DNA from: Diplonema papillatum
Lineage: Eukaryota; Euglenozoa; Diplonemea; Diplonemida; Diplonemidae
NCBI GenBank assembly: GCA_030068145.1
Contig: JAPJBO010000543.1
Span: 62,001-126,000, forward strand
Reading direction: 5' to 3'
Length of the DNA: 64,000 bases
The first letter of the stretch is position 1; the number at the start of each line of letters is the position of its first letter. A program made the position numbers and the translations under genes. The notes beneath the pieces were generated by a model. The model did no database searches, was not told the DNA's origin, and saw nothing but the letters and a program-made list of their open reading frames with translations. Shown one piece after another: positions 13,853 to 59,740 of the stretch.

Positions 13853-14085
13853 GCGTCCATCGAGAATGTCTGTCTTGTCACTGGCCCTCGCGCTGTCCCG
13901 CGGGGGGGGCGCGCCGTTTCTGGTGGGCGACGCGACCTGGCGCGCGTGCCCTCGTGGCTGGTCGGCGTTCCCGCCACATTCTACCAGTCGCTGCCGCACG
14001 GCGCCGGCCACACGCTCGAATGCACGGGATTCGACGCGTGCGACGCGTACGTGTTGCAGTACAGGTGTGCCGGCGGCCTGGGCCA
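13853..14085 (+). pseudogene. broken 5' copy of the 12-cysteine secreted protein gene
   Basis: From 'gcgtccatcgagaatgtctg' onward this matches 14453-14720 of the intact gene: leader, start codon, signal peptide and the segment up to the FQYRC motif. About 50 bp of the Ala/Pro-rich segment is missing, one G is lost at 'gacctgg-cgcgcgtg' (frameshift), the codon for the motif Phe is altered, and homology stops soon after 'gtgtgccggc'. It lies about 600 bp upstream of its parent. Confidence 0.88.
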
Positions 14086-14464
14086 GTCTTAGGGTTCTGT
14101 TCATTGTGAGAACGTGAGACCGTGAAAGACCGAGACACATGCACATGACTTCATGTACCGAAGGAGGAGAATATTGTAGGCATTCGCAAAAGTCGAAACC
14201 ACCAGAATCTTCCGCCGCATAAACAAAACGATCACAGGTCGAAAACACCAAAAAGCATCACGAAGAGAAAAAAACACCCCTCAAAACACAACACTTTGTC
14301 GCCGGATACTCAAGTCAGAAGACACCCTCCGCGCGGCAGGCAGATATAACTACAGCCAAAGATTTGATCGTCGGCAAGAAAAAAAAAAAAAAAAACGGGA
14401 TCGACGGTAACACAAAACACAAGACGCGAAACACTTCTTCGAGCCGAAAAAGCGTCCATCGAGA

Positions 14465-15088
14465 ATGTCTGTCTTGTCACTGGCCCTCGCGCTGTCCGCG
14501 TCAACCGCAGCGGCGCCGCCCCCGGCTGGGGGGGCGTCGTCGACGGTGTTCCCGGGGGCGTTTCTGGTGGGCGACGCGACCTGGGCGCGCGTGCCCTCGT
14601 GGCTGGTCGGCGTTCCCGCCACATTCTACCAGTCGCTGCCGCACGGCGCCGGCCACACGCTCGAATGCACGGGATTCGACGCGTGCGACGCGTACGTGTT
14701 CCAGTACAGGTGTGCCGGCTGCCCGTTCGACGACGGCGGCCTTCCGATCGCCCTGGGATCCCTCGGGTTCACTTCATTCGCCTGCGCCCCGACGTTTCGG
14801 TGGATCCCCGGCGGCAGCGCGCACAGGATGCTCGGCTGGCGCCTGAGGCTCGACCGGGGGCAGTCTGTCGCCGTCGATTCCGGCGCCGAAATGGCGATGG
14901 TCGCCTTCGCCGTGATCGAAGCCATCGACTGCGACAGCAGGGGCGACCGGCAAGCGTGCGAGGGAGCGTCGGAACTCTGCGCGTGGGGCAGCGGCGTGTG
15001 CGAGTACAGACAGTGCGGCAAGCCGACGGCCGGCCCGCAGCTGCCGGACACGTGCTCCAACCACTGCTTGGCGGCCGACCTGCCATAG
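14465..15088 (+). CDS. secreted 12-cysteine protein, paralogue of 27282-28013
   Basis: A 207-residue protein with an N-terminal hydrophobic signal peptide (about residues 1-17) and 12 cysteines (68, 74, 83, 86, 107, 146, 155, 162, 169, 174, 187, 191). The start is the first ATG after the leader and is shared with the upstream broken copy. The gene at 27282-28013 encodes a paralogue with the same 12-cysteine spacing, including FQYRC..C, a Cys 21 residues later followed by Ala-Pro, and CAW.GGVCE-type motifs. Six disulfides in an extracellular or lumenal domain are likely. No known family was recognised; a role in binding or surface structure would be a guess. No introns are evident. Flanks hold partial copies of the gene itself: 5' end at 13853-14085, 3' end tandemly repeated from 15217. 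Confidence 0.8.
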   Translation: MSVLSLALALSASTAAAPPPAGGASSTVFPGAFLVGDATWARVPSWLVGVPATFYQSLPHGAGHTLECTGFDACDAYVFQYRCAGCPFDDGGLPIALGSLGFTSFACAPTFRWIPGGSAHRMLGWRLRLDRGQSVAVDSGAEMAMVAFAVIEAIDCDSRGDRQACEGASELCAWGSGVCEYRQCGKPTAGPQLPDTCSNHCLAADLP

Positions 15089-16016
15089 GGCCCTACCGCC
15101 GACGTTGTCGTCTTCCGTTTTGCTGCCATACTACGGGTTTGACACACAGTGGAGTCGACAAGGTGAAACGCAAACCACGAGTGTGGTTTAAGCGTGCTGT
15201 TGACTGCTCCGAGTACGCAAGCCGACGGCCGGCCCGCAGCTGCCGGACACGTGCTCCAACCACTGCTTGGCGGCCGACCTGCCGTAGGGCCCTCCCACCG
15301 ACGTTGTCGTCTTCCGTTTTGCTGCCATACTACGGGTTCGACACACAGCGGAGTCGACAAGGTGAAACGCAAACCACGAGTGTGGTTTAAGCGTGCTGTT
15401 GACTGCTCCGAGTACGCAAGCCGACGGCCGGCCCGCAGCTGCCGGACACGTGCTCCAACCACTGCTTGGCGGCCGACCTGCCGTAGGGCCCTCCCACCGA
15501 CGTTGTCGTCTTCCGTTTTGCTGCCATACTACGGGTTCGACACACAGCGGAGTCGACAAGGTGAAACGCAAACCACGAGTGTGGTTTAAGCGTGCTGTTG
15601 ACTGCTCCGAGTACGCAAGCCGACGGCCGGCCCGCAGCTGCCGGACACGTGCTCCAACCACTGCTTGGCGGCCGACCTGCCGTAGGGCCCTCCCGCCGAC
15701 GTTGTCGTCTTCCGTTTTGCTGCCATACTACGGGTTCGACACACAGTGGAGTCGACAAGGTGAAACGCAAACCGCGAGTGTGGTTTAAGCGTGCTGTTGA
15801 CTGCTCCGAGTACGCAAGCCGACGGCCGGCCCGCAGCTGCCGGACACGTGCTCCAACCACTGCTTGGCGTCCGACCTGCCGTAGCAGGCCCTCATTTCGT
15901 CGCTCATCTTTGTCATCCGTTTTTCTGCCACCCCTGCGGGTTTGACACACAGTGAGTCGACGAAGTGAAGTGCGCCGCGAGTGTGGTTTGAACGTTCCGT
16001 TGCATGCTCCGAGGGG
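15018..16016 (+). repeat. 199-bp tandem array of the gene's own 3' end
   Basis: The unit starts with 'gcaagccgacggccggcccg' inside the gene (15018), runs through the last 23 codons, the TAG stop and about 130 bp of 3' flank ending 'gactgctccgagtac', then restarts at 15217, 15416, 15615 and 15814. Every copy keeps the stop codon. The first echoes are almost identical; the copy from 15814 decays after its stop codon, and a further degenerate piece extends to about 16150. Compared with the gene, each echo junction lacks ten bases ('agacagtgcg'). Confidence 0.93.
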
Positions 16017-17560: not shown

Positions 17561-17562
17561 GG

Positions 17563-18850: not shown

Positions 18851-18867
18851 GATTTGGAAAGACGATG

Positions 18868-21526: not shown

Positions 21527-22084
21527 TGAAAAGTCTGGAGAAAATAAAAGCGGTTGCGAGGCAACACTTGAAGCAACGCTTCGATTCGTTACTCATCCGC
21601 ATACCATACGTTTATAGGGTTGCTTGCAGGTTTTGGCTTGCGTCGACGCGATGCTGTGTCTTAGTAAGTGTATCGTGCCGTTTGAGACAAGGTGGCGACA
21701 CCCTTAATACAAGCAGCGCGTGCAGACTTCCAACATTTGTTGACGCCCGTCTTCACTCCCTCCTGATAGTCGTCGAGGCCCATCCCCAGTCTCCGGCTGG
21801 GGGGAGAGTTGGGACGAGGCAAAACGTACAAAAATATTGTGTCGACAGCACAAAATGCAACCAATTCGCGGCCCGGCTTCTTTTGTCGGGCGCTTTCCAC
21901 ACACGGGTCCGTAGTGTCCCTCCCCCTTGATGCTAGCATCAAACACACATGAGAGGCAAGTAGCGCCTGAACACGAAACTAAGATTTTCCCCCGGTTCGT
22001 TTCATGGGTGCATGACCCCTTCCACAACAAAACCGCTCGCCTTTTTTTTTGCTTCTACAGAAGAACTTTCGCCGTCTTCGACGA
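21527..22084. other. no gene; short MITE-like fragment
   Basis: The small palindrome 'gatgctagcatc' at 21929-21940, followed by 'atgagaggca', 'gcctgaacacgaaactaaga' and a C run, is echoed near 13150-13201, 54961-55030 and in part near 28635. This is another dispersed repeat. No coding sequence was supported. Confidence 0.5.
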
Positions 22085-22450
22085 GAAGACGACTTGAAAG
22101 ACTTGATGCCAGCACCAAGCGCACTGCAGGCAGGAGCCCGCAGTGTGCTTGGTGCTGGTCAAGTCTTCCTTGTCCAAAACATTTCTGGAGGTACGAGGTG
22201 CCTGGGGCGCTCCTTTTTCTAAGAACTTTCACCTCCATCTTCGAGACGAAGACCGGCTGCCAGCACCAGGCACACTGAGGGCAGGAGCCCGCAGTGTGCT
22301 TGGTGCTGGTCAAGTCTTCCTTGTCCAAAACATTTCTGGAGTACAAGGTGCCTGGGGCGCTGCTTTTTCTAAGAACTTTCACCATCTTCGAGACGAAGAC
22401 CGGCTGCCAGCACCAGGCACACTGAGGGCAGGAGCCCGCAGTGTGCTTCA
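22085..22450. repeat. about 150-bp tandem repeat, 2.5 copies, with inverted arms
   Basis: The anchor 'cagtgtgcttggtgctggtc' starts at 22141 and 22292 (151 bp) and in shortened form at 22439. Each unit also carries 'aagtcttccttgtccaaaac' and 'gaccggctgccagcaccagg'. 'gccagcaccaagc' and 'gcttggtgctgg' are opposed, giving cruciform potential. Confidence 0.85.
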
Positions 22451-23162: not shown

Positions 23163-23267
23163 GTTGGCAGCGTACTACATGAGCAGGTGGGTTCCGCTGG
23201 TGCGCACAAAAAAAAAGCGCTTCATCGTTTGGTACTAAAAATCAGTACGAAATTTTCACGTTTTTTT

Positions 23268-23552
23268 ACATAAGCGCCAGCTTGAAAGGAAATGCTCGAC
23301 GATGCTGCCCGACAAAGAAGGGATCCCAAGTGGTGTAACTACCGAACCACGTGTTGAACGGACGTGAGGTCATGCGGGTCTACTCCGACACGACAAATCA
23401 CACAAACAAAACAGGTCAAAGTCCTGAGTGAGAAAGCAACACACGGTGGTGTAAGCGAAGAACAAATCAGATTGTGTTTGTATTGTATTTGCCCCTTACC
23501 TCTATATTTCCTCCCTTCCATTCGGAGTCGAAGCAGCAACGTCGAGTATTTC
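23268..23552 (+). mobile_element. family A inverted-repeat element, copy 2
   Basis: A 285-bp copy. The left terminus 'gaaatgctcgacgatgctgc' pairs with the right terminus 'gcagcaacgtcgagtatttc' (18 of 20 positions after complementing). The middle contains 'acgtgaggtcatgcgggtct', 'aacaggtcaaagtcctgagt' and 'ttccattcggagtcgaag', shared with copies 3-5. No coding capacity is conserved, so this is a non-autonomous MITE-like element. Confidence 0.8.
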
Positions 23553-24264: not shown

Positions 24265-24745
24265 GCGCTTATATGGCACGTGCCCAAGTCTCGTGCAGGA
24301 CTACTGTAGCAGTTTCCAAGTCTGCACCTTCCTCAACTACTACAGTCGGGGGGGGGGGGCTTTCATGTAATTGGGAAAACACGTCCCCCCCCCGGCGTGT
24401 GCTCGTGGTTTTCCTCCACCAGGGTCACTGCCGAAGCGGCCGCATCACGTCCTTCCCCCTAACTGGCTTGGGGAGGCGGCGCCACCCAACCTGTTTATTT
24501 AGCTAAGTTCCTTATGACTGCTGCCCCCTCGGCGGTGACACGACGGGAGCACCTGAGTTTCGCCGGGTCACGATACTCTACAATCCGCTACCCAGCATCT
24601 TCAGTCGCGCTACGGATTCCCCCCGTTGATCAGGCGGTGGGGTGGTGTCTCCCGTCGCGTCTCGCCTTGCTCGCTTATGGGGAGGTGACGCCACTCACCT
24701 GTCGTGACCCAGCAGGGGCGACGCCAAATAACGATGCCCCAGCCC
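24265..24745 (-). repeat. 450-bp dispersed repeat, inverted partner of 12826-13275
   Basis: See the partner at 12826-13275. This copy has an extra block near 24345-24400, and its 5' end (minus-strand sense) abuts the first unit of the 26-bp satellite at 24743. Confidence 0.8.
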
Positions 24746-26718: not shown

Positions 26719-26780
26719 TTCGCAGGTAGACACGAGAGCTGCACTCCGTTTCCTGTGTTGACTCTTTGTTCCGGTCCTTC

Positions 26781-26879
26781 TCGCATGCTGTGCCTGCTCG
26801 TAGAACCGAGTCGGCGACCGCCATGTTCGGCGGCGACCGGCTGCTGGCGAAGGGCGCCGAGGCGCGGTACCGGTGCCCA
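26781..26879 (+). pseudogene. partial copy of the 27282-28013 gene joined to its leader
   Basis: 26813-26879 copies 67 bp of the interior of the downstream gene (27502-27568, 'ggcgaccgccatgttcggcg' onward) with a single mismatch. It is fused to 'gcatgctgtgcctgctcg.agaaccgagt', a leader segment that occurs again at 27064-27092. It is a rearranged fragment of the downstream gene region. Confidence 0.85.
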
Positions 26880-27281
26880 TCCACGATAACCAACTAGCCT
26901 CGTCGCGGGATCAGCCGGCAGCCGCTCGCTTAAACGGCAAGCGCATGCAGATCCGCGCGGTCCGTGTACTTAAAAGTTCCCAATGCTTAACGGGTTTATG
27001 ACGTGGGCGGCCCTGAGATTCCCCCCTCACTGTTATCTTTAACGGCACTCTTCAACCTTCTTGCATGCTGTGCCTGCTCGAAGAACCGAGTCCAGCGTTC
27101 CTGAAAGCCGTCTTCCAAACACGCCACGCAACACAGGTTTTACACACAAAACACGGGAAGCGTAAAAGAGCGCATACCTGCCACAGCAGAGAAAAGAAGG
27201 AGGACACGTACCCAGACCTACACTCACACACTTACACACACTCACACGCACACACTACATCCGGCGCTGAGAAAGGACGTT

Positions 27282-28013: not shown

Positions 28014-28018
28014 TTCTC

Positions 28019-28176
28019 TGGACTGCTGACAGACTGCTGACAGACTGCTGACAGACTGCTGACAGACTGCTGACAGACTGCTGACAGACTGCTGACAGAC
28101 TGCTGACAGACTGCTGACAGACTGCTGACAGACTGCTGACAGACTGCTGACAGACTGCTGACAGACTGCTGACAGA
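28019..28176 (+). repeat. 11-bp minisatellite directly after the stop codon
   Basis: 'gactgctgaca' is repeated about 14 times without interruption from 28019. It lies in the predicted 3' untranslated region. The minus-strand frame gives a meaningless VCQQSVSSLSA repeat. Confidence 0.93.
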
Positions 28177-28189
28177 CTGCACAGTTGAA

Positions 28190-28425
28190 GTGAGAATGCA
28201 GAATATCTGTAGTGATGGTACTACGGTGACAACCTCTTCGATCGTGCCGGGTCGTGCTTCTTGCGTTTGCACTCATCCGAAACATTGTCTTCGCGCGGTC
28301 GCTTTGCGCCTTCCCTTCCTTGCCGCTGTGCATGCTTCTGCGATCTTTTGAGGTGAGAATGCAGAATATCTGCAGCGATGGCCTGCATTATTCACTGGCG
28401 ACCACCTCTTCGATCGTACTCGCTC
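28190..28425 (+). repeat. direct repeat pair in the 3' flank
   Basis: 'gtgagaatgcagaatatctg' plus 'agtgatgg' and 'acctcttcgatcgt' occurs at about 28190-28250 and 28351-28420. This is a further small duplication downstream of the gene. Confidence 0.75.
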
Positions 28426-40578: not shown

Positions 40579-40639
40579 GCTGCCAGAGTGTAGTGCTCGC
40601 CTGCCTTCATGGCTGCACTTTACAGAACTCAATGCTGGC

Positions 40640-41085: not shown

Positions 41086-41094
41086 CTGTTGGCA

Positions 41095-44000: not shown

Positions 44001-47000
44001 GTAAGTATTGTCACAGACTGTTGCTGCATATCAACCTTACATTACAAGTAAGTATTGTCACAGACTGTTGCTGCATATCAACCTTACATTACAAGTAAGT
44101 ATTGTCACAGACTGTTGCTGCATATCAACCTTACATTACAAGTAAGTATTGTCACAGACTGTTGCTGCATATCAACCTTACATTACAAGTAAGTATTGTC
44201 ACAGACTGTTGCTGCATATCAACCTTACATTACAAGTAAGTATTGTCACAGACTGTTGCTGCATATCAACCTTACATTACAAGTAAGTATTGTCACAGAC
44301 TGTTGCTGCATATCAACCTTACATTACAAGTAAGTATTGTCACAGACTGTTGCTGCATATCAACCTTACATTACAAGTAAGTATTGTCACAGACTGTTGC
44401 TGCATATCAACCTTACATTACAAGTAAGTATTGTCACAGACTGTTGCTGCATATCAACCTTACATTACAAGTAAGTATTGTCACAGACTGTTGCTGCATA
44501 TCAACCTTACATTACAAGTAAGTATTGTCACAGACTGTTGCTGCATATCAACCTTACATTACAAGTAAGTATTGTCACAGACTGTTGCTGCATATCAACC
44601 TTACATTACAAGTAAGTATTGTCACAGACTGTTGCTGCATATCAACCTTACATTACAAGTAAGTATTGTCACAGACTGTTGCTGCATATCAACCTTACAT
44701 TACAAGTAAGTATTGTCACAGACTGTTGCTGCATATCAACCTTACATTACAAGTAAGTATTGTCACAGACTGTTGCTGCATATCAACCTTACATTACAAG
44801 TAAGTATTGTCACAGACTGTTGCTGCATATCAACCTTACATTACAAGTAAGTATTGTCACAGACTGTTGCTGCATATCAACCTTACATTACAAGTAAGTA
44901 TTGTCACAGACTGTTGCTGCATATCAACCTTACATTACAAGTAAGTATTGTCACAGACTGTTGCTGCATATCAACCTTACATTACAAGTAAGTATTGTCA
45001 CAGACTGTTGCTGCATATCAACCTTACATTACAAGTAAGTATTGTCACAGACTGTTGCTGCATATCAACCTTACATTACAAGTAAGTATTGTCACAGACT
45101 GTTGCTGCATATCAACCTTACATTACAAGTAAGTATTGTCACAGACTGTTGCTGCATATCAACCTTACATTACAAGTAAGTATTGTCACAGACTGTTGCT
45201 GCATATCAACCTTACATTACAAGTAAGTATTGTCACAGACTGTTGCTGCATATCAACCTTACATTACAAGTAAGTATTGTCACAGACTGTTGCTGCATAT
45301 CAACCTTACATTACAAGTAAGTATTGTCACAGACTGTTGCTGCATATCAACCTTACATTACAAGTAAGTATTGTCACAGACTGTTGCTGCATATCAACCT
45401 TACATTACAAGTAAGTATTGTCACAGACTGTTGCTGCATATCAACCTTACATTACAAGTAAGTATTGTCACAGACTGTTGCTGCATATCAACCTTACATT
45501 ACAAGTAAGTATTGTCACAGACTGTTGCTGCATATCAACCTTACATTACAAGTAAGTATTGTCACAGACTGTTGCTGCATATCAACCTTACATTACAAGT
45601 AAGTATTGTCACAGACTGTTGCTGCATATCAACCTTACATTACAAGTAAGTATTGTCACAGACTGTTGCTGCATATCAACCTTACATTACAAGTAAGTAT
45701 TGTCACAGACTGTTGCTGCATATCAACCTTACATTACAAGTAAGTATTGTCACAGACTGTTGCTGCATATCAACCTTACATTACAAGTAAGTATTGTCAC
45801 AGACTGTTGCTGCATATCAACCTTACATTACAAGTAAGTATTGTCACAGACTGTTGCTGCATATCAACCTTACATTACAAGTAAGTATTGTCACAGACTG
45901 TTGCTGCATATCAACCTTACATTACAAGTAAGTATTGTCACAGACTGTTGCTGCATATCAACCTTACATTACAAGTAAGTATTGTCACAGACTGTTGCTG
46001 CATATCAACCTTACATTACAAGTAAGTATTGTCACAGACTGTTGCTGCATATCAACCTTACATTACAAGTAAGTATTGTCACAGACTGTTGCTGCATATC
46101 AACCTTACATTACAAGTAAGTATTGTCACAGACTGTTGCTGCATATCAACCTTACATTACAAGTAAGTATTGTCACAGACTGTTGCTGCATATCAACCTT
46201 ACATTACAAGTAAGTATTGTCACAGACTGTTGCTGCATATCAACCTTACATTACAAGTAAGTATTGTCACAGACTGTTGCTGCATATCAACCTTACATTA
46301 CAAGTAAGTATTGTCACAGACTGTTGCTGCATATCAACCTTACATTACAAGTAAGTATTGTCACAGACTGTTGCTGCATATCAACCTTACATTACAAGTA
46401 AGTATTGTCACAGACTGTTGCTGCATATCAACCTTACATTACAAGTAAGTATTGTCACAGACTGTTGCTGCATATCAACCTTACATTACAAGTAAGTATT
46501 GTCACAGACTGTTGCTGCATATCAACCTTACATTACAAGTAAGTATTGTCACAGACTGTTGCTGCATATCAACCTTACATTACAAGTAAGTATTGTCACA
46601 GACTGTTGCTGCATATCAACCTTACATTACAAGTAAGTATTGTCACAGACTGTTGCTGCATATCAACCTTACATTACAAGTAAGTATTGTCACAGACTGT
46701 TGCTGCATATCAACCTTACATTACAAGTAAGTATTGTCACAGACTGTTGCTGCATATCAACCTTACATTACAAGTAAGTATTGTCACAGACTGTTGCTGC
46801 ATATCAACCTTACATTACAAGTAAGTATTGTCACAGACTGTTGCTGCATATCAACCTTACATTACAAGTAAGTATTGTCACAGACTGTTGCTGCATATCA
46901 ACCTTACATTACAAGTAAGTATTGTCACAGACTGTTGCTGCATATCAACCTTACATTACAAGTAAGTATTGTCACAGACTGTTGCTGCATATCAACCTTA

Positions 47001-50000
47001 CATTACAAGTAAGTATTGTCACAGACTGTTGCTGCATATCAACCTTACATTACAAGTAAGTATTGTCACAGACTGTTGCTGCATATCAACCTTACATTAC
47101 AAGTAAGTATTGTCACAGACTGTTGCTGCATATCAACCTTACATTACAAGTAAGTATTGTCACAGACTGTTGCTGCATATCAACCTTACATTACAAGTAA
47201 GTATTGTCACAGACTGTTGCTGCATATCAACCTTACATTACAAGTAAGTATTGTCACAGACTGTTGCTGCATATCAACCTTACATTACAAGTAAGTATTG
47301 TCACAGACTGTTGCTGCATATCAACCTTACATTACAAGTAAGTATTGTCACAGACTGTTGCTGCATATCAACCTTACATTACAAGTAAGTATTGTCACAG
47401 ACTGTTGCTGCATATCAACCTTACATTACAAGTAAGTATTGTCACAGACTGTTGCTGCATATCAACCTTACATTACAAGTAAGTATTGTCACAGACTGTT
47501 GCTGCATATCAACCTTACATTACAAGTAAGTATTGTCACAGACTGTTGCTGCATATCAACCTTACATTACAAGTAAGTATTGTCACAGACTGTTGCTGCA
47601 TATCAACCTTACATTACAAGTAAGTATTGTCACAGACTGTTGCTGCATATCAACCTTACATTACAAGTAAGTATTGTCACAGACTGTTGCTGCATATCAA
47701 CCTTACATTACAAGTAAGTATTGTCACAGACTGTTGCTGCATATCAACCTTACATTACAAGTAAGTATTGTCACAGACTGTTGCTGCATATCAACCTTAC
47801 ATTACAAGTAAGTATTGTCACAGACTGTTGCTGCATATCAACCTTACATTACAAGTAAGTATTGTCACAGACTGTTGCTGCATATCAACCTTACATTACA
47901 AGTAAGTATTGTCACAGACTGTTGCTGCATATCAACCTTACATTACAAGTAAGTATTGTCACAGACTGTTGCTGCATATCAACCTTACATTACAAGTAAG
48001 TATTGTCACAGACTGTTGCTGCATATCAACCTTACATTACAAGTAAGTATTGTCACAGACTGTTGCTGCATATCAACCTTACATTACAAGTAAGTATTGT
48101 CACAGACTGTTGCTGCATATCAACCTTACATTACAAGTAAGTATTGTCACAGACTGTTGCTGCATATCAACCTTACATTACAAGTAAGTATTGTCACAGA
48201 CTGTTGCTGCATATCAACCTTACATTACAAGTAAGTATTGTCACAGACTGTTGCTGCATATCAACCTTACATTACAAGTAAGTATTGTCACAGACTGTTG
48301 CTGCATATCAACCTTACATTACAAGTAAGTATTGTCACAGACTGTTGCTGCATATCAACCTTACATTACAAGTAAGTATTGTCACAGACTGTTGCTGCAT
48401 ATCAACCTTACATTACAAGTAAGTATTGTCACAGACTGTTGCTGCATATCAACCTTACATTACAAGTAAGTATTGTCACAGACTGTTGCTGCATATCAAC
48501 CTTACATTACAAGTAAGTATTGTCACAGACTGTTGCTGCATATCAACCTTACATTACAAGTAAGTATTGTCACAGACTGTTGCTGCATATCAACCTTACA
48601 TTACAAGTAAGTATTGTCACAGACTGTTGCTGCATATCAACCTTACATTACAAGTAAGTATTGTCACAGACTGTTGCTGCATATCAACCTTACATTACAA
48701 GTAAGTATTGTCACAGACTGTTGCTGCATATCAACCTTACATTACAAGTAAGTATTGTCACAGACTGTTGCTGCATATCAACCTTACATTACAAGTAAGT
48801 ATTGTCACAGACTGTTGCTGCATATCAACCTTACATTACAAGTAAGTATTGTCACAGACTGTTGCTGCATATCAACCTTACATTACAAGTAAGTATTGTC
48901 ACAGACTGTTGCTGCATATCAACCTTACATTACAAGTAAGTATTGTCACAGACTGTTGCTGCATATCAACCTTACATTACAAGTAAGTATTGTCACAGAC
49001 TGTTGCTGCATATCAACCTTACATTACAAGTAAGTATTGTCACAGACTGTTGCTGCATATCAACCTTACATTACAAGTAAGTATTGTCACAGACTGTTGC
49101 TGCATATCAACCTTACATTACAAGTAAGTATTGTCACAGACTGTTGCTGCATATCAACCTTACATTACAAGTAAGTATTGTCACAGACTGTTGCTGCATA
49201 TCAACCTTACATTACAAGTAAGTATTGTCACAGACTGTTGCTGCATATCAACCTTACATTACAAGTAAGTATTGTCACAGACTGTTGCTGCATATCAACC
49301 TTACATTACAAGTAAGTATTGTCACAGACTGTTGCTGCATATCAACCTTACATTACAAGTAAGTATTGTCACAGACTGTTGCTGCATATCAACCTTACAT
49401 TACAAGTAAGTATTGTCACAGACTGTTGCTGCATATCAACCTTACATTACAAGTAAGTATTGTCACAGACTGTTGCTGCATATCAACCTTACATTACAAG
49501 TAAGTATTGTCACAGACTGTTGCTGCATATCAACCTTACATTACAAGTAAGTATTGTCACAGACTGTTGCTGCATATCAACCTTACATTACAAGTAAGTA
49601 TTGTCACAGACTGTTGCTGCATATCAACCTTACATTACAAGTAAGTATTGTCACAGACTGTTGCTGCATATCAACCTTACATTACAAGTAAGTATTGTCA
49701 CAGACTGTTGCTGCATATCAACCTTACATTACAAGTAAGTATTGTCACAGACTGTTGCTGCATATCAACCTTACATTACAAGTAAGTATTGTCACAGACT
49801 GTTGCTGCATATCAACCTTACATTACAAGTAAGTATTGTCACAGACTGTTGCTGCATATCAACCTTACATTACAAGTAAGTATTGTCACAGACCGTTGCT
49901 GCATATCAACCTTACATTACAAGTAAGTATTGTCACAGACTGTTGCTGCATATCAACCTTACATTACAAGTAAGTATTGTCACAGACTGTTGCTGCATAT

Positions 50001-51882
50001 CAACCTTACATTACAAGTAAGTATTGTCACAGACTGTTGCTGCATATCAACCTTACATTACAAGTAAGTATTGTCACAGACTGTTGCTGCATATCAACCT
50101 TACATTACAAGTAAGTATTGTCACAGACTGTTGCTGCATATCAACCTTACATTACAAGTAAGTATTGTCACAGACTGTTGCTGCATATCAACCTTACATT
50201 ACAAGTAAGTATTGTCACAGACTGTTGCTGCATATCAACCTTACATTACAAGTAAGTATTGTCACAGACTGTTGCTGCATATCAACCTTACATTACAAGT
50301 AAGTATTGTCACAGACTGTTGCTGCATATCAACCTTACATTACAAGTAAGTATTGTCACAGACTGTTGCTGCATATCAACCTTACATTACAAGTAAGTAT
50401 TGTCACAGACTGTTGCTGCATATCAACCTTACATTACAAGTAAGTATTGTCACAGACTGTTGCTGCATATCAACCTTACATTACAAGTAAGTATTGTCAC
50501 AGACTGTTGCTGCATATCAACCTTACATTACAAGTAAGTATTGTCACAGACTGTTGCTGCATATCAACCTTACATTACAAGTAAGTATTGTCACAGACTG
50601 TTGCTGCATATCAACCTTACATTACAAGTAAGTATTGTCACAGACCGTTGCTGCATATCAACCTTACATTACAAGTAAGTATTGTCACAGACTGTTGCTG
50701 CATATCAACCTTACATTACAAGTAAGTATTGTCACAGACTGTTGCTGCATATCAACCTTACATTACAAGTAAGTATTGTCACAGACCGTTGCTGCATATC
50801 AACCTTACATTACAAGTAAGTATTGTCACAGACTGTTGCTGCATATCAACCTTACATTACAAGTAAGTATTGTCACAGACTGTTGCTGCATATCAACCTT
50901 ACATTACAAGTAAGTATTGTCACAGACCGTTGCTGCATATCAACCTTACATTACAAGTAAGTATTGTCACAGACTGTTGCTGCATATCAACCTTACATTA
51001 CAAGTAAGTATTGTCACAGACTGTTGCTGCATATCAACCTTACATTACAAGTAAGTATTGTCACAGACTGTTGCTGCATATCAACCTTACATTACAAGTA
51101 AGTATTGTCACAGACTGTTGCTGCATATCAACCTTACATTACAAGTAAGTATTGTCACAGACTGTTGCTGCATATCAACCTTACATTACAAGTAAGTATT
51201 GTCACAGACTGTTGCTGCATATCAACCTTACATTACAAGTAAGTATTGTCACAGACTGTTGCTGCATATCAACCTTACATTACAAGTAAGTATTGTCACA
51301 GACTGTTGCTGCATATCAACCTTACATTACAAGTAAGTATTGTCACAGACTGTTGCTGCATATCAACCTTACATTACAAGTAAGTATTGTCACAGACTGT
51401 TGCTGCATATCAACCTTACATTACAAGTAAGTATTGTCACAGACTGTTGCTGCATATCAACCTTACATTACAAGTAAGTATTGTCACAGACTGTTGCTGC
51501 ATATCAACCTTACATTACAAGTAAGTATTGTCACAGACTGTTGCTGCATATCAACCTTACATTACAAGTAAGTATTGTCACAGACTGTTGCTGCATATCA
51601 ACCTTACATTACAAGTAAGTATTGTCACAGACTGTTGCTGCATATCAACCTTACATTACAAGTAAGTATTGTCACAGACTGTTGCTGCATATCAACCTTA
51701 CATTACAAGTAAGTATTGTCACAGACTGTTGCTGCATATCAACCTTACATTACAAGTAAGTATTGTCACAGACCGTTGCTGCATATCAACCTTACATTAC
51801 AAGAAAGTATTGTCACAGACCGTTGCTGCATATCAACCTTACATTACAAGAAAGTATTGTCACAGACCGTTGCTGCATATCA
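41095..51882 (+). repeat. 47-bp satellite, 228 full units without any indel
   Basis: The unit is 'gtaagtattgtcacagactg' + 'ttgctgcatatcaaccttac' + 'attacaa'. From the first GTAAG at 41134 to the final partial unit at 51850 is exactly 228 x 47 bp. Nearly all units are identical; 'gaccg' instead of 'gactg' occurs near 49892, at 50645, 50786 and 50927 (141-bp steps, a trimer higher-order period) and in the last three units, of which the last two also read 'aagaaagt'. The first, variant monomer (41095-41141) carries 'acctcacctcacattactag'. Each unit contains a near-consensus 5' splice site (GTAAGT) and an acceptor-like CACAG. Confidence 0.97.
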
Positions 51883-52981
51883 TGCCTTTCTGCTGTACCT
51901 TCGACCAGTCTATGTACTCTTTAAAAGTACCAGAGGTCCAGCTACCCGCTCTTAGTAGGACTCCTAAGTCCGGGTTTTCGTCGTTTATGTCGTGCGCAGC
52001 CCCCCTACGGAAGCTGTGCGTTCCCCACCCAATGACGGGCTTCTGGTGGCGGTCTGCCTTCAACTTCACATTCTCCAGCACGATTGGATAAGTGAGTTGG
52101 AATACCCGTCGGCCAGGCTCGGTCGTGTTCTGGATGAACGGCCACAAGTAGTGGACTGGGCACATGGAACGCCATCCTACTGTAACGGTCGTGGCCTTGC
52201 ATGTGCAACCCCTCGTTAAAACCTCTCCGCTTTGTTTGCTTTTCCGGGAGGCGAGGACAATGTGCAACTCCTGTTGGAATCGGAAGACGGAGCTGTGTCG
52301 CTTCGATGTCTTAACGTCGTGGAGAGCTGAGTGAGGGGCGTCGGTCTCGAGCCCTCGACAGAGAGGAAGTGCTTCGTTGTTCGTCCGGAGAAGGAAGACG
52401 TACGACAGCACCGCGAGTGCGTTAAACTCGCGTAGCAAGCTCTTGGACGGTGTCGAAAACTTCGTGTCGGCCAGTATTTTGTCCAAGAGCTGGGACGTTA
52501 TCGGGTCCATCTTGTGCGTTGCCTTCTGCTCTCGACGGATGCCTTTGATCGCCTCCTGAACCCCTTTCGTGCGCAGTCGAGAGTCGATGCGGAGGTATCT
52601 TTGCACCTTCTCTAGTGCTGACAGGGAGCATTCTGCCGTGTCAGCGTTTGTGTGCAGCGACACGTAGCCTTCGAGCTCTGTGGTGTCGATCGGGAAGTGC
52701 GCGATGCACATCGCGTTCGCGTACCGGCTCCAAGATCGAACAGCGCGGAAGTACTGGTACCAGGTTTCGCCCTTCACGGACGAAACCTTCAGATGCTTGA
52801 CTGCATCTCGAACCATCTCGCGTGCGACCATAGGCGATGCCGCTTCGAGTGCTTCCAGCTTCCTCTTCATCGGCATGTGGATGCTTCTTATGCCTTTGTC
52901 CGACCCGTCCTTCGCTCGTTCCATAGCGTCAGTCAACATCTGGATGACTTCCGATCCGGTCGGGTACGCCAATGCGGACAT
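51860..52981 (-). CDS. tyrosine recombinase (Crypton-like) of a mobile element
   Basis: A 373-residue protein. Residues ~50-165 form a helical core-binding-like part. The catalytic domain shows R199 in LLRTNNEAL (Arg I), Lys candidates in the RKSKQ hairpin at 246-249, H322-S-F-R325 (H-x-x-R), W348 in the GSW segment (His/Trp box) and the nucleophile Y356 in FKEYIDW. A C-x-C...C-P-V-H cluster (C259, C261, C274, H277) may bind a metal. This is the arrangement of eukaryotic YR transposons (Cryptons, DIRS); no reverse transcriptase is nearby, so Crypton-like fits best. It would cut and rejoin DNA via a circular intermediate. The last residues (ICSNGL) and the TGA stop are encoded by the adjoining 47-bp satellite monomer. 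All catalytic residues are present, so it may be active. Confidence 0.87.
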   Translation of the reverse strand: MSALAYPTGSEVIQMLTDAMERAKDGSDKGIRSIHMPMKRKLEALEAASPMVAREMVRDAVKHLKVSSVKGETWYQYFRAVRSWSRYANAMCIAHFPIDTTELEGYVSLHTNADTAECSLSALEKVQRYLRIDSRLRTKGVQEAIKGIRREQKATHKMDPITSQLLDKILADTKFSTPSKSLLREFNALAVLSYVFLLRTNNEALPLCRGLETDAPHSALHDVKTSKRHSSVFRFQQELHIVLASRKSKQSGEVLTRGCTCKATTVTVGWRSMCPVHYLWPFIQNTTEPGRRVFQLTYPIVLENVKLKADRHQKPVIGWGTHSFRRGAAHDINDENPDLGVLLRAGSWTSGTFKEYIDWSKVQQKGMICSNGL

Positions 52982-53319
52982 CTTTTAAAGGGTGGGTGGG
53001 CGGGAAAACCTTTGTACTTACGTACGCTTCTTCTTTGGAAGAAGGCTCCGAGGCGGTCGTAGAGGTTGACTAGACGCTAACAAAACATGCCAATCCCTGT
53101 CACGCAGTGTCATTGGGATTGACTCTTCCTTTGTTATCGGGGTCAACTCTCTAGAACGGAAGGATGAGCTTACGTGGACCGCTCATCTGCGATGGGTAAC
53201 TCGGTCGTCGGATCTGATGGAAATCGATACCGGCAATCCGATGTTGAGTAGTCCAGGTAGTCGTTCGGGTCTTTCTGTTCCCTACGCAGACACTCAGATT
53301 TCCCGGTCCCATCGCAGTC
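51883..53319 (-). mobile_element. Crypton-like element inserted in a satellite monomer
   Basis: To the left, sequence up to 51882 is satellite ('gttgctgcatatca'). To the right, 53320 resumes 'acctcacctcacattactag'. At the far side of the array (41101-41133) these two halves are contiguous: 'gttgctgcatatca' + 'acctcacctcacattactag'. The element is therefore 1437 bp with precise borders and no target duplication larger than 2-3 bases, as expected for tyrosine-recombinase insertion. It contains one gene on the minus strand; the 338 bp 5' of that gene (52982-53319) hold no other ORF. The palindrome-like 'ggttgactagac' near 53065 is unexplained. Confidence 0.72.
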
Positions 53320-53370
53320 ACCTCACCTCACATTACTAGTAAGTATTGTCACAGACCGTTGCTGCTCATC
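53320..53370 (+). repeat. terminal monomer right of the recombinase element
   Basis: 'acctcacctcacattactag' + 'taagtattgtcacagaccgt' + 'tgctgc', then 'tcatcaatctc'. It is identical to the variant monomer at 41115-41151 except for the 'gaccg'/'gactg' site. It marks the outer edge of the satellite locus, 120 bp before the ankyrin-glutaminase start codon. Confidence 0.85.
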
Positions 53371-53492
53371 AATCTCAAATCACTTTTACTACTGCACAGC
53401 CTGCCCCATCCCCCCCCCTCTCTCCCTGGGCAGCCGTCACAGACACAACTGACTGCTAATTCGGAAAAGAGAAGAAAAAGGCAACCCGCGAA

Positions 53493-56400
53493 ATGCCGCT
53501 CAGCGCTGCCAGAAGCGCTCCCAGAAGCTACGGCAACGGCACGCCGAGGGAAAGCTTGGGGGAGGCCGACCGGGGCGCGATCCTGACGGAGCTGCAGGAG
53601 ATGCTCGGGCGGGACCGGCCGATGGACATTTTCGCGTACATTGAGTGTTTCGCGAAGCAGCGGGCAAACGTCTTGAACCGAAGCCCAATGGAGCAAGCGG
53701 CCGTCCTCTGCGACGCGTCGGCGACCGGCAACGCGGAGTACCTAACGGCGCTGCTGTCGCAGGGAGTCGACCCGAACGTGAGCGACTACGACAAGAGGCA
53801 CCCGCTCCACTTGGCTTCCGAGGAAGGACACCTTGAGTGTGTCAAGCTGTTGGTGGAGGCTGGGGCGGCCGTGGGCTGCGAGGACAGGTGGGGCACGAGG
53901 CCGCTGGACGGCGCGATCCAGAATCACCACTCGGAGGTCGCGGACTACCTGCGGTCGAAGGGCGCCGAGCCGAGCGTCAGCCGGAACGAGCAGGGCGCCA
54001 CCGCGCTGTGCAGCGCGGCCGGCAAGGGTGACATGGCGCAGCTGGAGCTGCTGCTGCGCAAGGGCATCTCGCCGAACGTGAGCGACTACGACAAGCGGAC
54101 GGCCCTCCACCTAGCCGCAGAGGAGGGACACCTCGCTTGCGTCAAAGTGCTCGTCGACGCCGGCGGCGACGTCAACGCTCAGGACCGGTGGCTCACGTCG
54201 CCGTTGACGGGCGCCGAAAACAACAACCATTCAGGTATCGTTGCTTATTTCACTTGAAAGTATGCCAATACTGCAGGGAATAGTTGTCTAGACCTCTTGA
54301 GTTTTTGTTCTTGAGAAAAAGCGAAGCCTTTTTTTTGGCACCAATTCAAGATATCCCCCCCAAATTTGGGTACTACGTTAGGAAACCCCCTTCCCGGGTT
54401 TGCGGGTCCGGGGTTTGCGGGTTTCCCGAATAAACACATCTGCCGTGCAATGAGAACCATCGCGCGCTACCTGAGGTCGGAAGGGGCGAAGAGCTCGCTG
54501 GAGCTGTCGATGGGCCAGCAGAGACGGCCGTCGTGCCTGCTGCAGACGCAGGACCTGATCGCTGCCGCGAAGCTGAACAACGTGGCGCAGCTCGGGCTGC
54601 TGCTGGCGAGCGGGGAGGAGCTCGACACCGTCGACATCGACAACCGGACGGCCCTCCACATCGCGGCGGGCGGAGGAAGGGCACTTCGACGCGACGGATG
54701 TCAGCTTACATACTTAAACACCCCCTCAAATCTTCCTCAGCAATTCTCTCCTATTTGGGCTACAAGTGTTGGGCACTCGAGGAGGTCGGTTTTGTCGACA
54801 ATGAGAGGACATCTTGTTGTTGTGTATCCTCGCAGCTCCGCAGGTTGACAAGGTGCGGGGATGAATTTGCTCCACCTCCCTTCCTCGTCGAGAGCGGCGC
54901 GTCCGTCGAGGCGAAGGACAGCGCGGGGGCGCGATCCCTCAACGACCCCTCACCTCTCTTCATGATTGATGCCTAGCATCAATCAGCACAAGAGGCAGTG
55001 TTCTGTTTAAACTTCCAACCACGAGTTTCCCACCCATTCTCACGGATTTTCCGAGGGAATCTGCGAAGGCTTGACGAATTTACATACAGGGTGTCTGTTC
55101 TACGGGGAAAACATTTTGTTCTCCCTCCCACCCGCCCAGTGGCAGGAATGGCGCGACGCCGGGGTGAATTTGCCATCCGTTTTCCTAGCCGTCCACGAGT
55201 ACTTCGTGAGAGCCGGGGCCGAGATCCCTCCCACCTTAACCCCGCAGGGTGTCCAAAGTACCCGTGGGGTATCACCCCATCGTAAGTTGCAATCCGGAGT
55301 TCTTCATTTCTTTCCTCTCTTTGAACGAAAACCGCAGCTGCAATGCACAGCTGCAATGCACAGCAGCAATGCACAGCAGCAATGCACAGCAGCTATGCAC
55401 AGCTGCAATGCACAGCAGCAATGCACAGCTGCAATGCACAGCAGCAATGCACAGCTGCAATGCACAGCAGCAATGCACAGCAGCAATGCACAGCTGCAAT
55501 GCACAGCAGCAATGCACAGCTGCAATGCAATGTACAGCTGCAATGCACAGCAGCAATGCACAGCTGCAATGCACAGCAGCAATGCACAGCTGCAATGCAA
55601 TGCACAGCTGCAATGCACAGCTGCAATGCACAGCAGCAATGCACAGCTGCAATGCACAGCAGCAATGCACAGCTGCAATGCACAGCAGCAATGCACAGCA
55701 GCAATGCACAGCTGCAATGCACAGCAGCAATGCACAGCTGCAATGCACAGCTGCAATGCACAGCAGCAATGCACAGCAGCAATGCACAGCTGCAATGCAC
55801 GGCAGCAATGCACAGCTGCAATGCACAGCAGCGATGTCTGACTGCAAAGTCCTACTGCAAAGCCCCATACTGAGGATAGCCGATAGAGATTCTGCCCGTA
55901 TGCCTCCCAAATTTGGGTACCGAATTAAGATGTCTCCCGGAAGTTGGATAATACATTCGGAGACCCCCTCCTCACTGGATGTGAACCATTCTCCACCCCG
56001 CAGACGTCGCGCACTACCTGAGGTCGGAAGGGGCAAAGAGCTCGCTGGAGCTGTCGATCGGCCTGCAGAGGCGGCCGTCGTTCCTGCTGCAGACGCAGGA
56101 CCTGATCGCTGCCGCGAAGCTGAACAACGTGGCGCAGCTCGGGCATCTGCTGGCGAGCGGGCACGAGCTCGACACCGTCGACATCGACAACCGGACGGCC
56201 CTCCACATCGCGGCGGAGGAAGGGCACTTCGACGCGGTCAAGTTCCTCGTCGAGAGCGGCGCGTCCGTCGAGGCGAAGGACCGCTGGGGCGCAACAGCCC
56301 TGCAGTACGCCATCCGCAACACGCACAACGACGTCGCAGGGCTCCTGAAGGACAGCGGTGCCCGGACTGTCAAGTTCGCCGAGCTTCCCACGTACACGGC

Positions 56401-58777
56401 GTATCAAAGGCGCACCCGGAACTTCTTCGACTCGATGGCCGTGTGCATCGGTTTCCCCACGACCGACGTCTTGCCGCTGAACGTCCTCATGCGCAAGCTC
56501 AAATTCGAGTTCGGCATGAACCTCGACGACCACCAGACCCTCCTGGCGGAAGTCAAGACCCTGGCGCGGTCCCGCGAGGATAGTGCTGTCGGCATCCTGC
56601 TCACCGAAGAGACCCGCGCGGCGCTCGAGGCGTACCAAGCGTACGAAGACACGCACCAGCCGGAGCTCGCCGACTCGGTCTTCCTCTGGCCGGACTTCGC
56701 GGACGCCGTCCTGAACCCGTTGCCCGAGCATGACCGGCTGAGCGAGCGCGAATTCGACACCGAAGGCGACGTCATCCTGAGCACCGTCGTCCTCGACAAG
56801 CTCGTCATCCGGAACTGGGAGGCCTTCACCCACAACCTGCGTGCCATGTATGCGTCCTGCACTCTACCTTGTCTCTCCCTCTCTCTCTTTCTTCCTGTGT
56901 ATGTGTGCCTTCACCCACAACCTGCGTGCCATGTATGCGTCCTGCACTCTACCTTGTCTCTCCCTCTCTCTCTTTCTTCCTGTGTATGTGTGCCTTCACC
57001 CACAACCTGCGTGCCGTGTACGCGTTCTGCACTCTAACTTGTCTCTCTATGTATGTATGTGCCATGTTCAATGATGTTGAGGAATATCTCACCCAACTGC
57101 CTACATGCACGATGCGCTGGTCTCGAGCGATCGTGAGTCTTCGAAACTGTGGGGTCTCGATAGAGAAGGGTGCTCGAAAGGTTGCGGGAAAACTGACGTG
57201 AGACCTGTCCTATTCTGACTGGATCGCTGATTTGACCCTCTCCTATCTCGTATCCGGACCTGGTCTGACCCGATTTCGGCTGAAAACTCGAAATTGAAGC
57301 ACAGGCTCTAGCAGGGTCCTGTCGAGCAAAACTTGAGTATGCAACACAAGGCGGAAAACTCATCCAACAACACACAGCTACGAAGACATTCTGTACAACA
57401 CGCCCAACGACGGCGACTGTGCGCAATACATCCCTGAGCTGAGAAGCGCGAACCCGAACCGCTTCGGCGTGTCCGTGTGTACTGTATGTTACCTTCCCCC
57501 TTTCCATCTCCGACGGACCGACCTTCCGCAACAGAACAGGGGGGCCAGAAGAGATGGTCCCTGCACTGGCCTCGAAGTCAGACAGGGAAAGTGCTGTTTT
57601 GGCACCAACTTGGGAGAAAGAACTCTTTTTGGGCACAAACTCAGGAGAGAAAAGGTACTGTTTTTGGGCAAAAAAAAAACTCAGAAAACCGTACTGTTTT
57701 GGCATCTCGCCGAGGTGACCCAAATTACTGCAGCCTCTTCTACCGCTCGAAGTGCGCGGGCTGGCGTTCGACGACACCACGCTGACACGGAAGGGGGAAA
57801 CCCGTTCAACCCGGCGGCCGACGTCGGCGATGCAGAATGCTTTCTAACCCCACCTAACCAAACTATCACACGGTCTATCAGGCGGCTTATCCATCTTGAT
57901 CATCCATTTCCCAGCCTCAAAACTCCTCTTCCACGAACAGATCGACGGCCAGCGGTGCCACTTGGGAGACACCGAGGACTCGTTCAGTGTGCAGTCCGTC
58001 GGGAAGACGTTCGCGTACACGCTGGCTTTGCGGGCGCACGGCGCCGAGTTCGTGCACAACCACGTCGGCCGCGAGCCGAGCGGGCGCGCGTTCAACGACT
58101 TCACGCTGACCCGGAAGGGCAAGCCGTTCAACCCGGTGACCAACGCCGGCGCGATTGTCACGTGCAGCCTCCTCAACGGCGAGATCGATGACATCGACGA
58201 GCGGTTGAAGCCGTATAAGGAGTTCGTATCCGAGTGCGCGGGCGGGCTGGAGGTCGGAGACTGCCTTGATGTGTACCGCAGCGAGCAAGGCTGCGCCTTC
58301 CGCAACTACGCTCTGGCGAACTTCATGCTCGCCGAGAACACGTTTCCCCCGGAGGTGGACTCCCACGAGAAGCTGTCGAAGACGGTCGAATTCTACCTCC
58401 GCGTGTGCTCCTGCAGGGTGAGCACGCCGCTGCTGGCGAACGCCGCAGCGACGTATGCCAACTACGGGCGGAGCCCGCTGACCGGGAAGCACCTGATCAC
58501 CGAGACGGGGGTGAAGCAGACGCTGCAGATCCTCGCGTCGTGCGGCATGTACGACTACTCCGGCGAGTGGGCGTGTACCATAGGCATGCCCGCTAAGTCC
58601 GGCGTGTCGGGAGAGATCTTCATCGTCGTCCCCGGCGTGTGCGGTCTCTGCGTCTGGTCCCCGAAGCTCGACTCCATCGGCAACTCCGTCCGCGGCATCC
58701 GCTTCGCGAAGGCGTTCGCCGAAAAGTTCAGGTACTCCGTCCTCGACCTGCTGTTCAGAGCGAAGGAAACGGCGTGA
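53493..58777 (+). CDS. ankyrin-repeat glutaminase, four exons, 842 codons
   Basis: Exons 53493-54234, 56004-56847, 57378-57483 and 57941-58777 (2529 nt, in frame). Junctions: HS-D(VAHYL) phase 1, RA-I-YEDILYN phase 2, VCT-IDGQR phase 0; all introns GT-AG. Residues ~68-260 and ~282-380 hold ankyrin repeats (TALHLAAEEGH, DRWG..PL). A helical EF-hand-like linker as in animal GLS follows (~390-528). The glutaminase domain (530-840) has the beta-lactamase-like S-x-x-K motif S583-V-G-K586, EPSG.AFN, NAGAI, GMYDYSG (766-772) and AKSGVSG. Glutamine is hydrolysed to glutamate and ammonia. Ankyrins precede the catalytic domain, the reverse of animal GLS. No mitochondrial presequence is obvious, so the start (first ATG after a pyrimidine tract and CACAG) may miss an upstream exon. 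Confidence 0.87.
54463..54945 (+). pseudogene. broken duplicate of exon 2 inside intron 1
   Basis: 54463-54695 copies the first ~230 bp of exon 2 (from 'ctacctgaggtcgg') but lacks its acceptor and gains four bases (GCGG) at 'gcggcgggcggagg'. After a 185-bp unrelated insertion, 54881-54925 continues with 'ttcctcgtcgagagcggcgc' and 'gtccgtcgaggcgaaggac'. The following codons are altered, so this cannot serve as an exon. Confidence 0.88.
54961..55333 (+). other. intron 1 spacer with dispersed-repeat words
   Basis: 'gattgatgcctagcatcaatc' (an inverted repeat) followed by 'aagaggcagtgttctg' and 'taaacttcc' belongs to the short repeat seen at 13150 and 21930. The rest, including a frame reading LPPAQWQEWRDAGVNLPSVF, has no relative here. 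Confidence 0.45.
55335..55836 (+). repeat. 13-bp minisatellite in intron 1 (about 38 copies)
   Basis: Units 'agctgcaatgcac' and 'agcagcaatgcac' are mixed, with a few 5-bp-longer joints ('caatgcaatg'). Thirteen is not a multiple of three, so all frames cycle and stay open on both strands; the long Cys/Gln/Ala-rich ORFs are artefacts. Confidence 0.95.
56823..57035 (+). repeat. 85-bp triplication of the exon 2/intron 2 border
   Basis: 'ccttcacccacaacctgcgt' begins at 56823, 56908 and 56993. Each copy includes the last coding bases of exon 2, a GTATGC-type donor (GTACGC in the third) and a CT-rich tract. Only the first is contiguous with exon 2, but all three offer the same donor context. Confidence 0.92.
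57745..57835 (+). pseudogene. degenerate exon 4 segment inside intron 3
   Basis: 'gcgttcgacgacaccacgct', 'gacacggaagggggaaaccc' and 'gttcaacccggcggccgacg' align with 58088-58155 of exon 4 (EPSG.AFNDFTLTRKGKPFNPVTNAGA-coding region), with frameshifts. A short, old duplicate. Confidence 0.75.
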
Positions 58778-58867
58778 GGAACAGCAGAAGGCACTTTCCG
58801 ACCGACAGGTTTTCTTGTGCGAAGCAGCCACCAGCGTGGAAGATGATGCGACTTTTTTTCGACTCTC

Positions 58868-59740
58868 TAGGTACTCCGGCTTCGACCTGCTGTTACTGGG
58901 GGGGGTCGAATACAGGAGGTACCTTGAATAGAAGAGGTACCTTGAATACAAGAGGCATTTTGGAAATCTGGAAAAAGGTTGGATTTTTCCTTGGTCCGCA
59001 TAACAGACCTTTTTCGACGGTTTTCTGATCGCGATGAGCTCCGATGAAGAGAACCGTGAAAAATAGACCCGGGGACCAAGATTTATGTGCGTGGTTCATG
59101 GGTCCTTGCCAGATGCGGGGCACCGGGCGTGGAACCCACAGGTTTTCAATAGAAAGGACGGGAATCGACCCACTGGTTGGTGACATTTCTTTGCTGGCCC
59201 GTGTAGCAGACCTTTTTCGGCGAATTTGTGCTCGCGTTCAGCTCCGATGAAGAGAACCGTGAAAAATAGACCCGGGGACCACAAATTGCGTGCGTCTTTC
59301 AAGAAGAAGGGAGCTCCCGCGGGTTCCGGGTTTGCGGTACTTTTTCCATTTCTTTTTCGGGAAAATTGCAGGATCGGCACGCCGAATAGAAGAGGTACCT
59401 CTTGTATTCGACCCCCCCCCAGTAAGAGCGAAGGAAACGGCGCGAGGAACAGCAAAAGGCACTTTGCCAGCGCGTTCCGACCGACAGGTTTGCTTGACCC
59501 TGCTCTTACGGAGCACTCTAGGTACCCCGTCTTCTTCGACCTGCTGTCCAGAAGGCACTCTGCCAGCGCGTTCCGACCGAAGGGTCTCCTTGACCCTGCT
59601 CTTGCGAAGCAGCCACCAGCGTGGAAGATGATGCTGCTTTTTCTGGCGCGCTCGCCAAAAAGGTTTCGGCACTCTAGGTACTCCGTATCTTCGACCTTCT
59701 CTTCGGAGCGAAACGGCGTGAGGAACAGGAAACACCGAAC
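58868..59740 (+). repeat. degraded tandem copies of the glutaminase 3' end
   Basis: The gene end from 'aggtactccgtcctcgacct' (58731) is echoed at 58868, 59519 and 59677 ('aggtac.ccg', 'cttcgacct.ct'). These are followed by copies of the last codons ('gcgaaggaaacggcg.gagga') and 3' flank ('gcactttgccagcgcgttcc', 'agccaccagcgtggaagatg'). The first copy is split by the element at 58893-59425. Echoes are preceded by 'actctag', which with the upstream T run could act as a splice acceptor. Confidence 0.85.
58893..59425. mobile_element. inverted-repeat element inside an echo copy of the glutaminase gene
   Basis: The left end 'ttactgggggggg' + 'tcgaatacaggaggtacc' and the right end (complement) 'ttactggggggggg' + 'tcgaatacaagaggtacc' form terminal inverted repeats of about 31 bp. 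Flanking 'gacctgctg' and 'gagcgaaggaaac' are adjacent in the parent gene save for four bases, so the insertion is recognisable against the intact sequence. The interior (533 bp total) has an internal duplication about 202 bp apart ('tccgatgaagagaaccgtga', 59041 and 59243). No coding capacity. Confidence 0.75.

Follow-up and report, generated by a model that had tools for sequence, protein, structure and literature searches.

Genes bordered by their own partial copies in Diplonema papillatum: probably the gene-borne part of a widespread local duplication background

The partial copies that stand beside their own genes in the nuclear genome of Diplonema (Paradiplonema) papillatum, called terminal echoes in a preliminary description, are probably the gene-borne part of a background of local direct duplication that is widespread in that genome. 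The pattern is real and has already been described, and it appears to reflect mostly this general background and not a mechanism that acts on gene ends. The stretch of DNA analysed, referred to as the window, comprises 64,000 nucleotides (C543:62001-126000), and the genome in which searches were made (G000) contains 271,365,524 bases in 2,910 contigs. The case suggests that a striking gene-linked pattern can arise mostly from background duplication, and it bears on the difficulty of annotating gene models in the abundant marine diplonemids.

Relation to published structures

The class of structure, a gene bordered by its own partial copies, is already known. Valach et al. 2023 (PMC10161547) published "repeat-bounded gene structures" for the D. 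papillatum genome, comprising dozens of gene models in which the 5' region, the final part of the first exon or the 3' end is repeated in tandem; among the matches listed in the literature from 2022, the phrase "repeat-bounded gene" occurs only in that paper. The genes of the window belong to the same genome and are like these structures in having copies of 5' UTR and coding sequence upstream or 3'-end copies downstream. The DIPPA_30931 protein of D. papillatum has a 100% identical match in the window's own genome, on C1390. Upstream copies of the 5' region, with a presumed UTR part, comprise the 371-bp units of an M48 protease gene, close in size to the published unit of about 400 bp, and one copy upstream of a Ras gene (L054). 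Downstream 3'-end copies of single-exon genes, likewise as in the published structures, comprise the 199-bp units of a gene for a secreted-type protein (SecA), the 345-bp units of the M48 gene, and copies at WD40 (L050) and FMO (L047) reading frames. A repeating exon border is the end of the first exon in the published structures and, in the ankyrin-glutaminase model of the window, the end of exon 2, which repeats into intron 2. The most distal copy is the most diverged both here and in the published structures, being 47% identical in the published case. The parts of that paper covered here give neither a rate against random DNA nor a mechanism; to the known class of structure we add that rate, obtained by comparison with random segments, a hybrid unit, a length difference of one unit between contigs, and a satellite probably derived from a gene leader.

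Copies around the genes of the window

Self-alignment, tandem-repeat finding and pairwise alignment recovered most of the copies noted in the preliminary description at or near the positions given there. The confirmed copy pairs have self-BLAST E values of 8.7e-8 or less and are therefore not due to chance. The genes, their copies and the tandem arrays described below lie on the forward strand unless stated otherwise.

SecA (14465-15088) belongs to the DIPPA_30931 family, with a 44% match at C543:76516-77094. A broken copy of its 5' end (13852-14078) aligns to 14451-14723 and is near-identical to it apart from indels, and an array of five units of about 199 bp (15018-16013) begins with a unit that spans the SecA stop codon. 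Units 1-4 of this array are 97.5-100% identical to each other, and the distal unit is 85.5-86.5% identical. A second secreted-type protein, SecB (27282-28013), is 48% identical to DIPPA_30931, its one named relative. Upstream of it lies a composite copy (26776-26878) in which 37 bp of upstream DNA (27056-27092, 94.6%) are joined to 66 bp of coding sequence (27500-27565, 100%), with 0 bp of homology at the junction. The SecB stop codon is followed by an 11-bp minisatellite detected by TRF (28021-28180), whose unit, with up to 3 mismatches allowed, recurs beyond the array at 22493 alone. A profile scan placed neither SecA nor SecB in a Pfam family. Their family has 142 matches genome-wide, including on C1390, C1233, C423, C1080 and C120, and members stand in tandem with a regular spacing of about 1.6, 2.0 and 2.7 kb; the sizes of duplicated units therefore range from 11 bp to kilobases. 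A third member of the family lies just left of the window (C543:59270-59920).

The M48-family protease gene (33274-34350; PF01435, E 8.5e-24) is flanked by arrays on both sides. Pairwise alignment defines upstream units V0-V5 (31210-33402), each of 371 bp and joining upstream DNA to the first codons of the gene; the regular units occupy 31443-33402 and a degenerate unit starts at 31210. Units V1-V4 are 91.6-98.6% identical to the gene unit and V0 is 74.1% identical. Alignment likewise defines 345-bp units of the 3' end at 34116-35073.

The ankyrin-glutaminase gene (53493-58777; PF04960, E 4.2e-84) encodes 842 amino acids in a continuous GT-AG model of four exons (53493-54234, 56004-56847, 57378-57483 and 57941-58777), predicted from DNA. 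Its relatives share 59% identity over 96%, and no near-identical protein is present among the 120 matches listed; the broken copies may have kept the gene unannotated. Intron 1 holds a partial copy of exon 2 (54460-54693, 94% to 56007-56236), and an 85-bp unit spanning the exon 2/intron 2 border is repeated about 2.7 times (56822-57047; TRF and self-alignment). A diverged piece of exon 4 lies in intron 3 (57756-57829, 81% to 58080-58151), and partial copies of the 3' end follow the gene (59425-59728, 80-95% to parts of 58730-58857). The copies here and at the M48 gene are DNA-level copies, because the 371-bp M48 unit runs from upstream DNA into the first codons and the 85-bp unit spans the modelled exon 2/intron 2 border.

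The fifth gene, a methyltransferase with exons guessed at 2427-3063 and 4967-5325, is recognised by a Methyltransf_24 match at 4850-5410 (Pfam E 5.3e-7, 30.9 bits, cut-off 26.3). Direct repeats in segments of ~40-80 bp (self-BLAST 76-96%) lie upstream of its open reading frame at 1721-2346, and its presumed intron holds a 69-bp array of 15.5 units (3515-4581, TRF 99%). Its coding sequence has no local copy by self-alignment up to 1.5 kb away.

The preliminary description is borne out at SecA, for both the broken 5' copy and the 199-bp 3'-end array, and at the M48 gene, for both the 371-bp array of the 5' end and the 345-bp copies of the 3' end. Its rearranged fragment upstream of SecB is present as well, and the 11-bp array, listed there among the gene-end copies, is a minisatellite and not a copy of the gene. 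At the ankyrin-glutaminase gene the exon 2, border, exon 4 and 3'-end copies hold, and the fragment of exon 1 that it listed (40981-41085) is genuine but lies 12.6 kb from its source and is not local. The upstream repeats and presumed-intron array of the methyltransferase exist but are not local copies of its own coding sequence. The broader statement that every gene is bordered by its own copies therefore applies to four of the five genes, each with part of its coding sequence copied no more than 1.5 kb away; counted by exon, five of nine have an outside copy within that distance.

Distribution of local copies in the window

Pairs of local copies less than 3 kb apart in the window are mostly in direct orientation (64 direct, 5 inverted, n = 69). 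Coverage was computed for direct copies within 3 kb, with tandem arrays included, the four large satellites removed and exons taken from predicted models. Such copies cover 46% of 1-kb gene flanks against 16% of the DNA lying farther than 1 kb from genes, together with 22% of exon bases (ankyrin-internal pairs excluded) and 33% of intron bases. Inverted copies cover ~1% of the flanks, ~1% of the DNA beyond, and none of the exon or intron bases. The flank enrichment has a rotation P of 0.007, a post hoc value obtained with five genes, in DNA that was selected because it shows the pattern. A boundary test gave 6 of 16 gene boundaries (P = 0.15), and the four of five genes with a copy compare with 30% of intergenic segments (P = 0.03, also post hoc).

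The flank excess and the proportion of window genes with copies count against a general background and favour an alternative in which a process directed at gene ends, acting at transcription starts or stops, R-loops, or trans-splicing or polyadenylation sites, makes the copies. The published examples, which are placed at gene ends (PMC10161547), point the same way, as does the finding that the farthest unit is the most diverged in all four gene-anchored arrays, the identities of the distal units to the gene unit being 74% (V0), 85.5% (U5), 80% (M2) and 93% (the third exon 2 unit). A gene copy under selection beside freely decaying units would be sufficient to explain this last observation. Copies uniform near the gene and decaying outward, as the preliminary description had them, are found as regards the distal unit, but the order within arrays is not monotonic: in the M48 5' array V2 (98.6%) equals V4 in closeness to the gene unit, and V3 is at 94.1%. 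A clean ladder in which new copies are always born beside the gene, as suggested by a first identity table, was rejected; the aligned M48 units alternate, V1/V3 with V2/V4/V5. Against a process directed at gene ends stand intergenic duplications of like character at 8789-9062, 11919-12462 and 22061-22448, and the rate at genes elsewhere.

Comparison with the rest of the genome

The control consisted of eighteen 10-kb regions (L034-L051) elsewhere in this genome, at places chosen arbitrarily with the sequence unseen. Of their total length, 9.9% is covered by direct copies within 3 kb and 2.8% by inverted ones. Merged islands with offsets up to 500 bp number 37 direct against 3 inverted, and with offsets up to 3 kb, 40 direct against 12 inverted; at 1-2 kb, inverted pairs outnumber direct ones (27 against 15). 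The direct bias is one of short range only. The window, with direct coverage of 19-89% per bin, lies above the average region, and its neighbours have 26% (L032) and 51% (L033).

Random 620-bp segments of the 18 regions, which include coding DNA, have an outside direct copy within 1.5 kb in 22.5% of cases. Of 15 genes sampled elsewhere, 4 have part of their own coding sequence copied nearby (binomial P = 0.45 against the expected 22.5%), so that genes and random segments have similar rates. The sample includes nine Ras genes, taken from the first ten matches listed with one left out as short, of which two have such a copy, at the 3' end in L053 and at the 5' end in L054; five of the remaining seven have direct repeats in the flanks that exclude the gene. 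Partial Ras matches stand beside full ones on C292 (= L054) and on C738, the latter being outside the gene count. The sample also includes six genes, represented by 7 of the 30 coding-like open reading frames of the 18 regions that were scanned against Pfam, which have a cellular Pfam domain. The WD40 and FMO genes have 3'-end copies, the cullin gene has only an internal duplication (of about 70 bp), and no nearby copy of their own coding sequence was found for the OST48, cold-shock protein and mitochondrial carrier genes of the sampled regions. Kept outside the 15-gene count were three transposon-like reading frames (two reverse transcriptases and one OTU/endonuclease), none of which has an outside copy, and 20 reading frames without a Pfam domain over the cut-off, among which two L045 frames have an outside copy. 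Internal duplications occur in 1 of the 15 genes against 6.8% per 620 bp, with no visible depletion. Coding-like reading frames with short internal direct duplications were seen at L035:242-1309 (offsets of 81 and 108 bp), L038:7934-8662 (the cullin frame) and L044:6081-6620 (78-bp steps).

The preliminary description proposed a genome-wide process that re-copies gene ends locally, and named a lack of partial copies at most other genes as the finding that would speak against it. Local copying does extend well beyond the window, but this sample does not support its being aimed at gene ends, and 11 of the 15 genes lack a copy, the very outcome so named. Specificity for gene ends is without support among these 15 genes, which are still compatible with a modest enrichment elsewhere, and a process directed at gene ends is on balance unlikely.

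Hybrid unit and length variant at the M48 locus

The middle unit of the M48 3' array is a hybrid of its neighbours: its first 129 bases are identical to the distal unit and its last 263 to the gene unit. It is the product expected of one out-of-register exchange in a two-unit array. The locus is also present on a second contig, C2710 (12,452 bp), which matches window positions 27260-33032 and 34700-39500 at a printed identity of 100%. It has one 371-bp unit fewer upstream and one 345-bp unit fewer downstream of the M48 gene, whose reading frame is identical in DNA between the two contigs; besides the missing units there is a two-base difference near 33147. The shorter version may be a genuine length variant; otherwise C2710 is a redundant contig in which units have collapsed. 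Two hallmarks of unequal homologous exchange are accordingly found, the hybrid unit and a whole-unit length variant, the latter possibly being an assembly collapse.

The difference of one unit at both ends of the M48 gene is also what would be seen if the copies were artefacts of misassembled or collapsed repeats in the hybrid PacBio/Illumina assembly. The ends of C2710, by extrapolation of the matched coordinates, fall in a satellite and in a dispersed repeat, and repeats tend to push assemblies above genome size (PMC10161547). Against this, many of the copies have diverged and have other DNA between them and their source, a feature that assembly software does not generate, and in the published work PacBio reads confirm an array at one gene of this genome (PMC10161547). 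An artefact is for these reasons quite unlikely as the source of the pattern as a whole; the copy numbers of the near-identical arrays are uncertain.

It is very unlikely that selection maintains the arrays as regulatory elements of 5' or 3' UTRs. They do adjoin stops and starts, and D. papillatum has unusually long 3' UTRs (PMC10161547), but distal units decay, arrays are also present away from recognised genes, and the published array is not in mature mRNA (PMC10161547). Highly improbable is the RNA-mediated local reinsertion of retrocopied or excised transcript fragments, a route also raised in the preliminary description: the copies are indeed fragments of nearby genes, but the units carry DNA from upstream of the gene and, in the predicted ankyrin-glutaminase model, an unspliced exon-intron border, so that they differ from mRNA retrocopies, which hold no introns or flanking DNA; 64 of the 69 local pairs share one orientation, and a euglenozoan spliced-leader motif, with up to 3 mismatches, gave no match.

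A route from local duplication to gene-bordering copies

Under the favoured explanation, a general background of local direct duplication, we infer the initiating event, the present-day rate and the role of selection as follows. A stretch of tens to thousands of bases would first gain a direct-oriented copy at its side, when replication switches template or when sister chromatids exchange unequally at sites sharing little or no homology. From two copies onward, whole units could be gained or lost through unequal homologous exchange. Selection would then keep the intact gene copy while the extra copies decay, the farthest most. Genes would be struck about as often as other DNA. The prominence of gene ends would then have two sources: a reader can recognise a copy only if it derives from a gene, and the gene itself survives intact when a duplication crosses its boundary.

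Homology at the junctions ranges from 0 bp in the SecB composite to about 4 bp at the junction 11919/12261, and therefore fits template switching or nonhomologous unequal exchange. Simple tandem duplication is opposed by the 5' copy of SecA and the SecB composite, which are parted from their sources by unique DNA and need insertion or templated patching. A comparable case is found in yeast, where unequal nonhomologous recombination gave rise to the CUP1 tandem arrays (PMC4232551). There too a tandem duplication arises from a single copy without long homology, and unequal crossover is discussed as the mechanism by which units are gained and lost (PMC4232551). The CUP1 arrays concern one whole gene of yeast, unlike the partial fragments in many parts of the genome found here.

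The 47-bp satellite and other elements of the window

A satellite of 230 units of 47 bp (41089-51882, 10.8 kb; TRF 99%) precedes the ankyrin-glutaminase gene. The exon 1 fragment adjoins its left edge (40981-41085; 90.6% to 53611-53716), and a segment upstream of the ankyrin-glutaminase ATG (53320-53383) is 85-89% like the satellite unit. Judged from these likenesses, the satellite probably derives from the ankyrin-glutaminase leader. In whole-genome searches that skip simple repeats, and from which copies in arrays could escape, the leader query (53290-53500) found nothing besides its own place, and the exon 1 fragment found its own place and exon 1 but no third one.

Minisatellites and satellites are born and homogenised by unequal exchange, which yields head-to-tail units with a near-identical interior and diverged edges. 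The array here has the same features; unlike the general case, it probably comes from the leader of one gene. The M48 arrays, with their hybrid unit and shorter version, and this satellite beside its likely source gene offer loci at which unequal exchange and satellite birth may be followed. More tentatively, and with considerable doubt, short-range direct duplication in D. papillatum may be unusually frequent and still under way, about 10% of the arbitrarily sampled DNA having a local copy, and may time and again start satellites private to one locus from gene leaders present in single copy, of which the ankyrin-glutaminase array would be an example. If so, it would be a natural system in which to watch satellite birth and the reshaping of gene boundaries.

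Other elements were seen in the window. The 47-bp satellite has the motif GTCACAGAYYGTTGCTGC in common with the glutaminase leader (53350-53370) and with the methyltransferase region (4673-4690). Between the satellite and the glutaminase gene, a reading frame of 373 amino acids on the minus strand (51863-52981) has weak matches to Cre-type recombinases (E 0.015) and no Pfam family; from these matches it is possibly a Crypton-like tyrosine-recombinase transposon. An inverted pair of ~470 bp, 86% identical, lies 11 kb apart at 12833-13275 and 24275-24737. A dispersed repeat of ~290 bp occurs at 23263-23552, 30110-30577, 39538-39813 and 63043-63305; among the 40 of 1,418 candidates that were scored, those outside the window's own place are 96-97% identical to 23263-23552 over nearly the whole length. 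An element of ~470 bp (36279-36747) is 97-98% identical at no fewer than 38 other places among 40 candidates scored and, from this near-identity, was probably recently mobile. The D. papillatum genome contains about 3,600 scattered pieces of 28S rRNA (PMC10161547), and the window holds a fragment of eukaryotic 18S rRNA at 40360-40482 (model positions 989-1112, 59 bits).
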